Positions 2,845 to 32,550 of a stretch of DNA of 35,886 bases are shown one piece after another; within the stretch, counting starts at the first letter, position 1, and each line of letters starts with the position of its first letter. Location: positions 1 through 35,886 of the forward strand of contig JAEOTN010000056.1 of NCBI GenBank assembly GCA_016839865.1. Reading direction: 5' to 3'. The stretch is from Promethearchaeota archaeon. GTDB taxonomy: Archaea > Asgardarchaeota > Lokiarchaeia > Sigynarchaeales > MK-D1. Below the pieces are notes generated by a model that saw only the letters and a list, made by a program, of their open reading frames with translations, made no database searches and had not been told where the DNA came from. The position numbers and the translations under genes were made by a program.

Positions 2845-2934
2845 AATTTTAACTAGTGCTATTCTCCCCAATAGGATGGTAATTTTCATTTTCATAACAA
2901 AAACCATAAAAAAACCAGCGACCTATTGACTTAT

Positions 2935-4368
2935 ATGAAGCAGTTTCGGCAAAAAAATAACACTTCTGTAAAAAAAATATGTATAGCGGTTTTTTGTATT
3001 TTTCAGGTGCTACTTATTCCTACATTCTTTATCTCATCAATATCTGGTCAAGAAGAATCGGATTTACTATTTGGAAGTAATATTCAAGTAAATGATGATA
3101 GATATAGTCCTTATTCAAACCAAGTAGAACCAACCATGACAATTTTGAGCACCGGTAAAATTTTGGTCGGATGGAAAGAAGCAGATTCACATACTGGAGG
3201 TGGAAGAAGAGTCGGATATGCATACTCAATTGATAATGGGACTTCTTTCAGCAGAAATATCCTAATGACTCGAATATCTCAGAATAATTTCCAATCTGAT
3301 CCATGGTTAATTTCCGATTCAGATGATAATGCCTATTTTGTTTGGATAGAATTTAACGATATCAGTGAAAACTATCCACCTGAAGGAATAGGAGTTGCTA
3401 GAACCACTGATGGAGGAAACACATGGGGGACACCTATAAATGCGGCTGATACTCCTTATTTCGATGATAAAGAAACAGCATGCATTGATTCGAATGGAAG
3501 CATCTACATGGTTTGGGATAACCTAGATGTCAATACTGGTGGAGCAGTAGTAGATTGGGATATGAGATTCACGAAATCGACTAATTATGGTACCTCATTT
3601 AGTCCAACAACACCTCTAGCTACAAAAACTTACATCCCTTATATCCATTGTAGCCCGAATGATACTCTATATATCTCATCTATAAATAGTTCAGGAACTG
3701 GAGAAAATGATCCTAATAACCAGATTTTTTTCATGCGATCTCACGATTTAGGAGCGAATTGGAGTGATCCTTTACTATTACCTACTGTATTGTCAGAAGT
3801 AGATATCATAACTGTAGTTGATACGGATTCTGATGAAAATGTATATGTGGCATATTCTGCTGGAACTTCTAACTCAAAGAATATCTTTGTAATAAAATCA
3901 GAAGATGGTGGTTTCACATGGAATACTCCTGTCCAAGTAAATGATGCGTCTAGTAGTCTTGCATATCATCGAATGGTTGAAATGTTTATCGGAACAAATG
4001 ATACAATTCATGTTGCATGGTTAGATTCCAGGCATGGAGAATATAATATATATTATAGTTATTCAAATGATGGAGGTCAAAATTTCTCCGCAGACGAAAG
4101 AGTAAGCGAAGAAGGATTCCATTTTAACTTTGAGAGACCTGGTGATTATTTCTGTATGCGTGAAGACCCAGTTACAAGTGATATATGCCTAGTTTGGACA
4201 GATGGACGCAATGGGGAAGATCATGATATTTATTTTGCACGTCAAGGATTGCATATACCACCACCACCACCCTTGTGGATCAGAATTGTTATAGTAGCGA
4301 GTATTGTCGGGGTCACCATCATCGTTTTATCAATTGTCGCAGGAGTTAGCAAAAAACGATTGGGGTGA
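2935..4368 (+). CDS. Asp-box (BNR repeat, sialidase-fold) surface protein, membrane anchored
   Basis: The product is a 477-residue protein with a basic N-terminus and hydrophobic segment (about 15-38, ending near SSISGQ) that looks like a secretion signal or N-terminal anchor. A beta-propeller-like body follows with repeated Asp-boxes of the SxDxGxxW/F type (SIDNGTSF, TTDGGNTW, SEDGGFTW, SNDGGQNF). A short polyproline linker leads to one C-terminal transmembrane helix and a basic KKRLG tail. The body would face outside the cell. Asp-box propellers occur in sialidases and other glycan-binding or glycan-cleaving proteins; I cannot identify a complete sialidase active site, so catalysis is unproven. 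The ATG at 2935 was preferred over the TTG at 2926; neither has a clear ribosome binding site. The next gene is a paralogue. Confidence 0.75.
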   Translation: MKQFRQKNNTSVKKICIAVFCIFQVLLIPTFFISSISGQEESDLLFGSNIQVNDDRYSPYSNQVEPTMTILSTGKILVGWKEADSHTGGGRRVGYAYSIDNGTSFSRNILMTRISQNNFQSDPWLISDSDDNAYFVWIEFNDISENYPPEGIGVARTTDGGNTWGTPINAADTPYFDDKETACIDSNGSIYMVWDNLDVNTGGAVVDWDMRFTKSTNYGTSFSPTTPLATKTYIPYIHCSPNDTLYISSINSSGTGENDPNNQIFFMRSHDLGANWSDPLLLPTVLSEVDIITVVDTDSDENVYVAYSAGTSNSKNIFVIKSEDGGFTWNTPVQVNDASSSLAYHRMVEMFIGTNDTIHVAWLDSRHGEYNIYYSYSNDGGQNFSADERVSEEGFHFNFERPGDYFCMREDPVTSDICLVWTDGRNGEDHDIYFARQGLHIPPPPPLWIRIVIVASIVGVTIIVLSIVAGVSKKRLG

Positions 4369-28391: not shown

Positions 28392-28976
28392 ATGTCAACT
28401 CAAAAAAACGCTGTTGAGGATATTCCCGAAAGTTATCAGGAATATCTTGTAGCGATTTATCGTCTGTCTTCAAAATTAGGTAGAGTTACAAATAAGGATA
28501 TTTCCGAATTCATGGAAATAGCACCCCCTTCTGTGTACAATATGTTAAAAAAATTAGCTAGTCGAGAGTTAATTGATTGGCGACCTAAAAGTAAAGAGAT
28601 TTTATTATCCCCTGGAGGGAAATTATATGGAAAAAAACTCATTTTGGGTCACTTAATCATGGAACTTTTTTTACGAGAGTATCTAGGAATAACGGATGAT
28701 AAAGAAATACATTCTCTTGCATGTAAACTGGAACATCACGTAACAGACATCGTCAAAGAAGGATTTCGTAAAAAAATTGGAGAGGTTGAATATAAGAAGC
28801 TTGAAAAAATTGTTGAAAAAGAACCTGATCCAGAGGAGGCAATTAAAAAGATTCATGAAGTATTCCCCACTCCCAATCGAATTGTTGACCAATTTTCTGA
28901 AAAATTGATTAAATTATTACCAAACTCGAAAGAACAAATAAAATCTGCGAAAGAAGAATTTATAAAGGATAATTAA
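28392..28976 (+). CDS. DtxR/MntR-family metal-dependent transcriptional regulator
   Basis: The 194-residue protein carries the DtxR pattern: an N-terminal winged helix (YQEYLVAIYRLSSKLGRVTNKDISEFMEIAPPSVYNMLKKLASRELIDW) and the metal-binding/dimerisation helices (GHLIMELFLREYLGI...ACKLEHHVTDIV). Glu and His ligands of the metal site are visible there. A Lys- and Glu-rich helical tail replaces the SH3-like third domain, as in MntR. Such proteins repress metal uptake genes when iron or manganese is plentiful. I see no metal transporter in this window, so its targets are elsewhere. It lies 48 bp after the radical SAM gene and its end overlaps the convergent membrane-protein gene by 4 bp. Confidence 0.85.
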   Translation: MSTQKNAVEDIPESYQEYLVAIYRLSSKLGRVTNKDISEFMEIAPPSVYNMLKKLASRELIDWRPKSKEILLSPGGKLYGKKLILGHLIMELFLREYLGITDDKEIHSLACKLEHHVTDIVKEGFRKKIGEVEYKKLEKIVEKEPDPEEAIKKIHEVFPTPNRIVDQFSEKLIKLLPNSKEQIKSAKEEFIKDN

Positions 28977-29872
28977 TCACGTAGAAATTTTCCCATTACA
29001 AAATCTTTCCAATCTCTTCCTATCATGAAAACTCCTAATAATAATAAAAAAAGACCAGTTGCTTTGTCAAGATAGGACCACGTTCCATCCGCAAATAACA
29101 CCATCAAAATCCCGCCTATTGTTAGCAAGATTCCAATAAAAGTTTCGTGTAGATGAGCTTTCCTTACATAAATTCTCTTGAATCCTGTTGCTGCAAGTGA
29201 TTTCACGAAATCGGGACATCTAAGTAGAAAATAAACCAGTAGAAAGGTTAGACTTGCAGTTATTAGGATGTATGATTCATCCGTGCTCAAGTAATTATCA
29301 TAATATAAAGCACTAAAAGCCCAATTGGAACCTCTATAAAATACGAACAATATTGCTAGGATTGCCAAGATTGCGAGAATATTTGCAACCATTAGAAGAA
29401 TTCTAAAAAAGCCTTTACGCCGATAAAGTTCATCCATTGTATAATATCCATCTTTTTTCACAAATTTTTCAGGATAATAAACATCATTTCCTTCTGCATC
29501 TTCTTCGGGAACTACGTGAATTATATCATCATGAATAACTACAATACGAGTTTTATCCTTAGAATCCTTATTTTTCACAAAACGATTATGGATAAGCATA
29601 GATACAAGAGATAAAATGAAGAATCCAACTATAATGAGAATGAAGATGGTACGAAAAATTTCATCATAGCCTATTCGATTATAATAATCTTCAATCCGTT
29701 CATGATTTAGCCAATTTCCAGGACCTAATGAATAATCAGTCCAATTACTCACAATACGTAAACCAGAGTATACATAAACCAGTGCAATTGCTACGAATAA
29801 GAATGTTAAGCCAAGTATAATGAAGAAACGGGATAAAAAATTCTTTGGTTTTGCCTTCATTGAGTGTTCCAT
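28973..29872 (-). CDS. Six-helix membrane protein in the small-GTPase operon
   Basis: The 299-residue protein has about six hydrophobic helices: FFIILGLTFLFVAIALVYVYSGL, IFILIIVGFFILSLVSMLI, ILLMVANILAILAILAILFVFY, YILITASLTFLLVYFLL, FIGILLTIGGILMVLFA and GLFLLLLGVFMIG. A hydrophilic loop of about 60 residues between helices 2 and 3 (KDKTRIVVIHDDIIHVVPEEDAEGND) is the only sizeable soluble part. No transporter or enzyme motif is visible. The ATG at 29872 has a strong GGGGATC ribosome binding site and lies 9 nt after the stop of the KaiC/V4R-like gene, so it is the third gene of the GTPase operon. It may be the membrane receptor or anchor for that system; this is inferred from position only. 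Confidence 0.65.
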   Translation of the reverse strand: MEHSMKAKPKNFLSRFFIILGLTFLFVAIALVYVYSGLRIVSNWTDYSLGPGNWLNHERIEDYYNRIGYDEIFRTIFILIIVGFFILSLVSMLIHNRFVKNKDSKDKTRIVVIHDDIIHVVPEEDAEGNDVYYPEKFVKKDGYYTMDELYRRKGFFRILLMVANILAILAILAILFVFYRGSNWAFSALYYDNYLSTDESYILITASLTFLLVYFLLRCPDFVKSLAATGFKRIYVRKAHLHETFIGILLTIGGILMVLFADGTWSYLDKATGLFLLLLGVFMIGRDWKDFVMGKFLRD

Positions 29873-29881
29873 GTGATCCCC

Positions 29882-31156
29882 TTATCCTAAAACTATGATT
29901 AAATTTGCGATTATATTTGTATCTGTTGTTTTTAACTTCAAATCAATCTGAGATACTGTTAATTTCAAACTTTGAGAAATAATTCCTGAGTACAATCCCT
30001 TCAATATCGATTTAAAGACATTTTCTTGGATTTTTGAATGAAAAGTATGATTATATTCTACAAGTTTATGTGAAAGATCTCTTTTTACCTGAATGCTTTC
30101 TCCCCATCCGAGTAATGACCAGATTCTAAGAGTAGTTTTCACTGTTTCCCATCGTTCAATCATATATAAATTCTGCACAAAACCGCTAAGATCGGATCCA
30201 ATTTTATACGCTACATCTTCAAGCACAGTCGGATCTTCAATCTTAGTTAAGAATCGCATCCAGCTACGAGTAGGTAATAATAAGAATGGAATCCTAGAAA
30301 ATTCAAGAGTTCCCTTATCCCAATCCATTAAATTGCGGAAAGCTTCGAAAGTGTTCAAGAATGCAGATTTTATTATGATTGAAAAATTCTCTGTTTTCTC
30401 ATCAAAATGAATTTTATAGGGCTCAATTCGATTATCATGCATATAATGACCAACCATCTTCAAAATACGAATATATTGCTGTTTTGAAATGCCTTCAAAT
30501 GTTGAGGTTAAATCCACCACATTGTGACATAAAGTCTGTATTTGGGATAACATTTCATTGGATACAATGTCTTTATTCATGAGAATCAAATCGCAAGTAT
30601 GAGAGTCACAGCACAGATTTAGATTATCTTGAATGAGCTGAATCACATTCAGGGGTGAAAGATTGAGAATAAAAGGATTGATACTTATGATAAACGTAAA
30701 ACACTGAATCGAAGAATCGTTCTCTTCAGATCTTCGTTTGTTGACATATTCTAATGCTCTTTCGCGAGCACTTCGTATTTGGAGCGAAATTTCATGTTTA
30801 TTCGTATATAAATTAACATTTTTGACTCCTTTTTCCACCAAATCTAGAATAATGAAATTAGAGTTATTTGTAACGCTAGGAATTGAATATATCAATGAAC
30901 GAGAGACTGCATCTGTCAGGATAACCAAAACAACATTAGCAACTGATAATTGGTTTTCAATAATCTGCTTTAGAATAACTTCTCCGCCACTACCAATATC
31001 TTGTTGGATTAAAGTTAAACTATCGCTTTGGAAACCTCCACCTAACATTTCATCCAATTCTCGTATACCGCTAGAGTTAAACTTCTTTTTTTCCAATATT
31101 TCTCTTTTCTTAAGTGTTGAATCAGCTAATTTCTTTTGTATATCTTTACTCATCAT
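29882..31156 (-). CDS. KaiC-like protein with lost P-loop and V4R/Bet3-like C-terminal region
   Basis: The 424-residue protein begins with a RecA/KaiC-like region: FNSSGIRELDEMLGGGF is the typical lead-in, but the P-loop reads QQDIGSGGEV (51-60), without the Lys-Thr/Ser of Walker A, so it probably cannot hydrolyse ATP. Residues about 286-424 resemble V4R domains: IGSDLSGFVQNLY, LGWGES (349-354), KSILKGLYSGIIS (382-394) and a final strand NLIIVLG. V4R is the prokaryotic relative of the TRAPP subunit Bet3, which helps activate Rab GTPases. The start overlaps the Rab-like gene by ATGA; a second ATG follows at once (31153). The longer frame from 31276 lies inside the GTPase gene and is spurious. 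Translational coupling suggests a physical partner of the GTPase. Confidence 0.6.
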   Translation of the reverse strand: MMSKDIQKKLADSTLKKREILEKKKFNSSGIRELDEMLGGGFQSDSLTLIQQDIGSGGEVILKQIIENQLSVANVVLVILTDAVSRSLIYSIPSVTNNSNFIILDLVEKGVKNVNLYTNKHEISLQIRSARERALEYVNKRRSEENDSSIQCFTFIISINPFILNLSPLNVIQLIQDNLNLCCDSHTCDLILMNKDIVSNEMLSQIQTLCHNVVDLTSTFEGISKQQYIRILKMVGHYMHDNRIEPYKIHFDEKTENFSIIIKSAFLNTFEAFRNLMDWDKGTLEFSRIPFLLLPTRSWMRFLTKIEDPTVLEDVAYKIGSDLSGFVQNLYMIERWETVKTTLRIWSLLGWGESIQVKRDLSHKLVEYNHTFHSKIQENVFKSILKGLYSGIISQSLKLTVSQIDLKLKTTDTNIIANLIIVLG

Positions 31157-31677
31157 TTGTCCCCCATAGCTTGAGATAAAATAACTGTGGCAATATCTTC
31201 GAATACTTCTTCCATATGAGTTCCTTCTTTTGCAGAAGTTGTATAAAATCGAATGTCTTTTCGTAATTGAACACATAATTCTTTTGCAATACTCTCTATA
31301 TTCGGATTATATTCCAAATCGCTTTTATTTCCTATAATTGAAAGTGGGACAGAATCACCCAAAACGTTTGTAACATCCATATACCAATCCCGAATATGAG
31401 ATAAAGAGGGCTTATTTGTAAGATCAAATAGTAGCAATATTCCTTGTGCGCCTTTTAAATAATTCCCACGCACAGCTGCCCACAAAGTCTGTCCTCCTAT
31501 ATCCCAGATGGTCATATTTACAGTCTTTTCATCTGTTTCTATTGTCTTACGGTTGAATTGGACTCCAATTGTCGACATATAATTCTCTTTGAAGAATCCT
31601 TCGGTGTAATGCCGAATTAGGCTGGTCTTTCCAACAGAACTATCTCCAAGAACGCAGAGCTTTACTTTTATTGGCAT
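31153..31677 (-). CDS. Rab-like small GTPase (Ras superfamily)
   Basis: The 174-residue protein has all five G motifs: G1 GDSSVGKTS (11-19), switch I Thr36 in STIGVQF (Rab-like), G3 WDIGGQ (58-63) with Gln63 matching catalytic Gln61 of Ras, G4 NKSD (117-120) and G5 TSAK (147-150). WDIGGQ differs from the eukaryotic WDTAGQ. The C-terminus (SQAMGDK) lacks Cys, so it is not prenylated; membrane attachment would need a partner. Such Ras/Rab-like GTPases are abundant in Asgard archaea and bind GTP as molecular switches. The ATG at 31677 has a good AGAGGA ribosome binding site. It is the first gene of an operon with the KaiC/V4R-like protein (4-bp overlap) and a membrane protein. Confidence 0.93.
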   Translation of the reverse strand: MPIKVKLCVLGDSSVGKTSLIRHYTEGFFKENYMSTIGVQFNRKTIETDEKTVNMTIWDIGGQTLWAAVRGNYLKGAQGILLLFDLTNKPSLSHIRDWYMDVTNVLGDSVPLSIIGNKSDLEYNPNIESIAKELCVQLRKDIRFYTTSAKEGTHMEEVFEDIATVILSQAMGDK

Positions 31678-31863: not shown

Positions 31864-32550
31864 ATGCCAAAAAGTGCAAAGGACAAGCTTGAGAATATAA
31901 TAACCTCTTTACGTGATGGTCTTAGTGAATTTGCTTCATTGATTGAAGATATTAACAAATCTAGTTCCATGCTACTGAAATTGTTTAGTAAAACCCAAAA
32001 AGAGCTCAAAGGTATAAAAATTGGGAAACACGCCGTAGTATCAGATAGAACACCCGCACCAGCAAAACCAATTGTAGGAATCAAATCTGGTCAGAATGCC
32101 CGAGAAAAAGCAGCTAATTTGTTATTTAATATGTTATCTACTGGACAAACTGGAGGAGGAGCACCCGCAACTGCTTCAGCGGCACCTTCGACACCACCTT
32201 CTGGTCCTCCAGGACGTGGCCCTCCAAGTGCACCAAAATCTGGACCTCGGGGTAGACCCCCAAGTGCACCACCAGGAAAGTCTCCATCAGGATTACCTCC
32301 ACCACCAAAATTACCTCCAAAATCTCCAGGTGCAGCACCACCAGGTGTCACAGCTCAACCTTCATTTATGAAAGCACCACCAGGAATGAGTCCACCCCCA
32401 TCAAAACCGGGAGTTTCACCAATGGGAGCTGGTGGTCCACCTGCAGCACCTGTTGCAGCGGGAGGGGGCGGAGGAGCCGGATTATCATCGCTACGTGATG
32501 AAATGTTGAAAGAATTAGATCGTCTTAAGAAGATCATGCGTGGCGGCTAA
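31864..32550 (+). CDS. Polyproline linker protein with N- and C-terminal helices, divergent from the GTPase operon
   Basis: The 228-residue protein is in three parts. Residues 1-50 form an amphipathic helix or coiled coil (SAKDKLENIITSLRDGLSEF). A second short helix (REKAANLLFNMLS) is near 80-93. Residues about 100-205 are low complexity, rich in Pro, Ser, Gly and Ala, with runs such as GLPPPPKLPPKSP and SPPPSKPG. The C-terminus is again helical (SSLRDEMLKELDRLKKIM). No enzyme motif or membrane helix is present. In eukaryotes polyproline stretches bind profilin, SH3 or WW proteins, and Asgard archaea have actin and profilin homologues. A cytoskeletal scaffold is therefore possible, but only from composition. 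It shares a divergent promoter with the Rab-like GTPase. The in-frame ATG at 31864 is taken. Confidence 0.75.
   Translation: MPKSAKDKLENIITSLRDGLSEFASLIEDINKSSSMLLKLFSKTQKELKGIKIGKHAVVSDRTPAPAKPIVGIKSGQNAREKAANLLFNMLSTGQTGGGAPATASAAPSTPPSGPPGRGPPSAPKSGPRGRPPSAPPGKSPSGLPPPPKLPPKSPGAAPPGVTAQPSFMKAPPGMSPPPSKPGVSPMGAGGPPAAPVAAGGGGGAGLSSLRDEMLKELDRLKKIMRGG

Follow-up and report, generated by a model that had tools for sequence, protein, structure and literature searches.

Asgard genomes encode many Rab-like GTPases. According to the accessible text of a study on MK-D1 (PMC10933270), 74 sequences related to Rab-like GTPases are reported for this organism, the small GTPase genes generally lie outside operons with roadblock, longin or TRAPPC3 (V4R genes are not named in that statement), and the genome layout makes Asgard GTPases hard to match with their regulators. 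In human cells, Rab proteins are the switches that steer membrane traffic, and a Bet3-fold protein is a core component of the eukaryotic machine by which Rab is activated. The locus described here, in which a relative of Rab and a predicted Bet3-fold partner are the products of directly adjoining genes, raises the question whether the two form a dedicated module; such a pair would offer a handle on how the Rab-TRAPP partnership began. The window, i.e., the whole stretch of Lokiarchaeon DNA that was analysed, comprises 35,886 nucleotides.

As determined by sequence and ORF analysis, the minus strand of the window carries the genes for a GTPase, its partner and a membrane protein in that order, and these genes constitute an operon (Table 1). 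A second in-frame ATG at 31153 in the partner gene yields the 423-aa form analysed here; this start is in line with the closer relatives, in which the equivalent MSKR/MSRR is the start. The membrane-protein gene begins 9 nt past the partner stop (29882 to 29872), and its ATG is preceded by AAGGGGATCAC, a candidate ribosome binding site. The preliminary description had reported the ATGA coupling of the GTPase stop with the partner start, the 9-nt distance to the third gene, a partner P-loop devoid of lysine, and LGWGES and KSILKGLYSGIIS toward the partner C terminus; the coordinates agree with the first two, and the P-loop and both C-terminal motifs were located in the partner.

Table 1. Coordinates of the three-gene operon and of features within it
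Feature	Position	Strand	Basis
Ras/Rab-type small GTPase, 174 aa	31153..31677	-	Pfam Ras family, E 1e-42; top match among solved structures Rab-1B, E 4.1e-32
Overlap (ATGA) between the GTPase stop codon and the start codon of the partner	31153..31156	-	sequence: TGA 31155-31153, ATG 31156-31154
Partner, KaiC-like plus predicted V4R/Bet3-fold domains	29882..31153	-	423 aa; 424 aa with the upstream ATG
KaiC/FlaH-like RecA-fold domain (predicted), partner residues about 23-237	30443..31087	-	
Degenerate P-loop QQDIGSGGEV, partner residues 50-59	30977..31006	-	lysine position non-Lys in aligned members
V4R/Bet3-fold domain (predicted), partner residues about 286-423	29885..30298	-	model with mean pLDDT 80.2, pTM 0.76
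Membrane protein, 299 aa, no known family	28973..29872	-	hydropathy; Pfam without match above cut-off

Judged by its sequence, the first protein is a Ras-fold GTPase with five intact motifs, which we take to be G1 to G5, and these are kept across a seven-row alignment, the glutamine of DxxGQ included. Its likeness to Rab is a matter of best matches, the tree described below having no eukaryotic rows. As stated earlier for this locus, there is no cysteine for prenylation near the C terminus, which ends in SQAMGDK, and in this respect the protein departs from Rab.

The N-terminal domain of the partner has a RecA/KaiC fold in the predicted model. At the position of the Walker A lysine, the 22 aligned members have G (20 members) or C (two members) and in no case lysine. 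The regions that separate the two domains (residues 235-252 and 255-294) are poorly modelled in the full-length prediction. Regarding the C-terminal domain, comparison of its predicted model with V4R/Bet3 structures had been proposed as a check, and the outcome was positive: the model has the V4R/Bet3 fold and shares it with Bet3 and TPC6, the broad fold being common also to H-NOX and BcsD structures. The V4R-fold assignment is therefore supported at the level of the model.

Comparison of profiles points in the same direction. Using hhalign, the partner domain scored 93% against an Asgard V4R profile (E 3.6e-7, 119 columns), with reversed controls at 5.6% and 12.9% and lower values (52% and 9%) for narrower, Loki-only V4R sets, and 1% (E 0.054) against an Asgard TRAPPC3 profile. 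In V4R scoring, 16 of the 22 aligned members scored higher than any of 2200 shuffled and 22 reversed versions of the C-terminal part, the window partner itself barely so (8.9 vs 8.7 bits); in TRAPPC3 scoring none of the 22 rose above the shuffles. By sequence, the domain thus resembles Asgard V4R and not Asgard TRAPPC3. Because none of the 22 aligned members matched the Pfam V4R model (PF02830) at E up to 10, in a search whose HMMER filters discard most weak matches, the partner is not counted as belonging to the Pfam V4R family. Residues 286-423 contain no cysteine, the conserved columns of alignment A1 are likewise free of it, and the Zn-binding cysteine cluster of typical V4R domains is missing. 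In the accessible text of PMC10933270, the Zn-binding cysteines are reported to be missing in mouse TRAPPC3 as well.

The third protein of the operon has five hydrophobic segments over the cut-off used in the hydropathy analysis, and a Pfam scan gave nothing over the cut-off. Strong relatives (E 7.3e-60 or better) were found in three genomes of the phylum, designated G001, G002 and G003, and weak matches in nine further genomes (best E 2.4e-8). Adjoining the three genes on the plus strand (31864-32550) is a divergent gene for a 228-aa protein with a proline/glycine-rich stretch; it retains its place next to the module in both G001 and G002 (about 71% identity) and had no match in the Pfam scan.

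A search of 227 genomes of the phylum for orthologues of the partner yielded some match in 22 and a full-length copy in four (G001, G002, G003 and G087). In all four, a GTPase gene lies immediately upstream of the partner orthologue and the gene ends overlap, by 4 nt at loci L050 and L051 and by a longer stretch at L052 and L053, where the extent varies with the start codon assumed; in G003 the GTPase gene is interrupted by the contig end. Of the three-gene order put forward in the preliminary description, the GTPase-partner part holds in 4/4 genomes, whereas the membrane-protein gene is adjacent in two (G001 and G002), separated from the pair by one opposite-strand gene in G003, and absent from the locus in G087. 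G001 and G002 share most neighbours with the window and are not independent, because the whole neighbourhood is common to both; G087 keeps the pair though the other neighbours differ.

The adjacent GTPase is also the closest counterpart of the window GTPase in the genomes concerned: it is the best of 38 matches in G001 (E 9.6e-85, next 4.1e-36), of 36 in G002 (2.2e-76, next 9.0e-36) and of 52 in G087 (3.5e-41, next 2.8e-32). Among the 29 matches in G003, the GTPase cut by the contig end ranks low by E-value, with an identity of 49% over 86 residues that is the highest among the matches listed. A quick tree built from 82 dereplicated rows, none of them eukaryotic, unites the window GTPase with its partner-adjacent counterparts from G001, G002 and G087 in a single clade (SH-aLRT 97). 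On these sequence comparisons, the pairing in G001, G002 and G087 is more than chance, and the GTPase-partner link is conserved.

The most consequential result is that V4R genes are frequently linked to GTPase genes in the class. A sample of 60 mutually related genomes from the class to which G001 belongs contained 58 with a V4R match at E ≤ 0.001 and 35 with one above Pfam's own cut-off, many V4R genes of the class lying below it. A total of 125 V4R places were examined (second matches within one ORF were merged; one place had no ORF), the linked places being surveyed in L204-L297, L056, L171-L174 and L178-L203. A GTPase ORF was present within the fetched flank (1.5-2 kb) at 90 of these places, and at 84, distributed over 53 of the 58 genomes, a same-strand GTPase was found no more than 500 bp from the V4R gene. 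In a control on a DNA-binding family in the same genome draw, none of 30 loci had any GTPase; at V4R loci with flanks equal to the control the count was 20/31 vs 0/30 (Fisher p 1.8e-8, indicative only because the genomes are related). The class V4R sets scored 99.4% and 99.7% against the Asgard V4R profile, which is the profile that was used to pick them. Such gene pairs provide specific, testable matches of GTPases with partners and bear on the rise of the Rab-TRAPP partnership, whether this preceded eukaryogenesis or took place in the course of it.

The linkage is concentrated in a few of the 21 groups into which the 124 V4R ORFs were clustered. A same-strand GTPase occurs within 600 bp at 47/50 genes of a 159-aa group, at 34/36 of a 198-aa group, whose members come after an ORF of about 340 aa bearing an Arf/Ras-type GTPase domain, and at 4/5 of a 190-aa group; a single such case occurs in each of three further groups, and the remaining 15 of the 21 groups of the class have none within this distance. 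In the quick tree, the GTPases of the 159-aa and 198-aa groups fall into supported clades other than that of the window GTPase, the first of which contains two rows without a close V4R gene. A search across the phylum found a GTPase in the flank of 2/30 V4R loci and 0/30 TRAPP loci, the V4R sample being biased to strong Pfam matches, which are mostly unlinked even within the class.

Some ORFs in these surroundings have additional domains. In the ORFs of about 340 aa beside the V4R genes of L284 (2695-3732) and L277 (437-1441), the Arf/Ras-type GTPase domain comes after some 165 aa of N-terminal domain without an assigned family; the next ORF in L277 matches the Prismane/CO dehydrogenase family. 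Near the V4R-GTPase pairs of L182 (2276-3178) and L206 (3100-4056), ORFs with a GTPase domain are extended at the N terminus by about 150 aa.

As to the interpretation, the preliminary description had proposed a primitive module of GTPase, regulator and membrane receptor, a simple counterpart of TRAPP and Rab. A GTPase with a conserved, V4R-fold partner is the part that stands and is well supported; the membrane-protein gene is variable, and the C-terminal domain of the partner resembles Asgard V4R rather than Asgard TRAPPC3 in sequence. The full reading, a dedicated and membrane-linked module in which the partner is cognate to the Rab-type GTPase, is the account that we favour, with some reserve. 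The Rab-type protein would then be a working GDP/GTP switch, to which the partner would bind. By analogy with its relatives, the V4R/Bet3-fold domain is likely to form a dimer and may accommodate a hydrophobic ligand, and the KaiC-like domain, with its P-loop lysine lost, may be a protein-binding scaffold and not an ATPase. Since a cysteine for lipid attachment is missing from the GTPase, the membrane protein probably recruits the complex of GTPase and partner and carries it to the membrane. Most likely, the partner would tie the nucleotide state of the GTPase to a signal from a ligand or from the membrane. The pair MglA-MglB, as described in the accessible literature, is similar in that a prokaryotic small GTPase (MglA, Ras-like) has a dedicated regulator, but MglB contains a roadblock domain and not V4R.

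Within such a module the partner could be an effector, recruited by the GTP-bound GTPase and acting through V4R on a ligand, redox or metabolic state while the GTPase is regulated elsewhere; we regard this version as possible, but hold it tentatively. The solved V4R relatives among the structural matches are the ligand sensors MopR, PoxR and DmpR, bacterial phenol-responsive activators that, like the partner, join a V4R-type sensor to a P-loop NTPase-fold domain. In these activators, transcription is driven by an ATPase of the AAA+ type, whereas the window partner has a KaiC-like domain without the P-loop lysine and is encoded beside a GTPase. An effector would also fit the 159-aa V4R type, to which 8 of the 18 printed loci belong (seven group members and one from G087): a small ORF lies between the GTPase and V4R genes in 7 of these 8, with a thioredoxin match in the single ORF tested, while in L140 the two genes overlap by 4 nt without an intervening ORF. 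No thioredoxin-like gene occurs within the three window genes, however, and the present data separate an effector from a regulator in no respect. KaiC-like proteins in general have been proposed as archaeal signalling hubs (cited in the accessible text of PMC5847659).

The other special case, in which the V4R-fold partner is the exchange factor of the GTPase and a precursor of TRAPP in its action on Rab, is unlikely. The fold that the partner model shares with Bet3 and TPC6, the top match of the GTPase to Rab-1B and the recurrence of V4R-GTPase gene pairs in the class are consistent with it, and the TRAPP core with its Rab (Bet3/TRAPPC3, TRAPPC5/C6; Rab1 or Rab11) likewise combines a Rab-type GTPase with a Bet3-fold protein. 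In the accessible text of PMC10152722, however, the longin subunits C1 and C4 make up most of the TRAPP active site, with C3 at its flank, and no longin was matched among the five window ORFs scanned. In contrast to TRAPP and Rab, the window GTPase has no prenyl cysteine, and the partner is fused to a KaiC-like domain and is closer in sequence to V4R than to TRAPPC3, to the Asgard profile of which it showed no similarity. Asgard TRAPPC3 and V4R proteins (Thor-TRAPPC3, PDB 7yh3), as presented in the accessible part of PMC10933270, are one-domain, Zn-binding proteins, unlike the partner. That the gene order is a functionless leftover of synteny, as the many window neighbours common to G001 and G002 might suggest, is highly improbable given that G087 keeps the pair among differing genes, that the gene ends overlap in all four genomes and that further V4R-GTPase pairings exist in the class.

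The favoured reading of a cognate GTPase-partner module invites a wider proposal, which we consider doubtful at present: V4R-fold proteins might be widespread cognate GTPase regulators in Lokiarchaeia, serving several GTPase lineages; the Bet3-Rab relation of TRAPP would descend from such pairs, with longins coming later, and the window module would be a variant in which V4R is borne by a KaiC-like pseudo-ATPase. V4R has been proposed as the ancestor of Bet3 in PMC2253512, the main text of which does not contain the words GTPase and operon. In the titles and abstract openings within reach (many journals were not), no account of a GTPase/V4R-fold pair or of a KaiC-V4R fusion was found.

Proteins of about 420 aa that are matched by both KaiC-domain and V4R profiles also occur in other Asgard genomes (13 in the loci surveyed: L116-L122 and L124), in some loci as tandem arrays. 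The P-loop lysine is missing from all 14 printed N-termini of these fusions, several of which have GSMGE, near the GSGGE of the window partner. None of the 13 proteins adjoins a GTPase gene in the loci surveyed; in L124 a GTPase gene lies about 3 kb away. In L208, a 589-aa V4R ORF with a KaiC-like start (969-2738), belonging to an orthologue group of 3, has a divergent, GTPase-like 301-aa ORF (2922-3827) 183 bp downstream of it.
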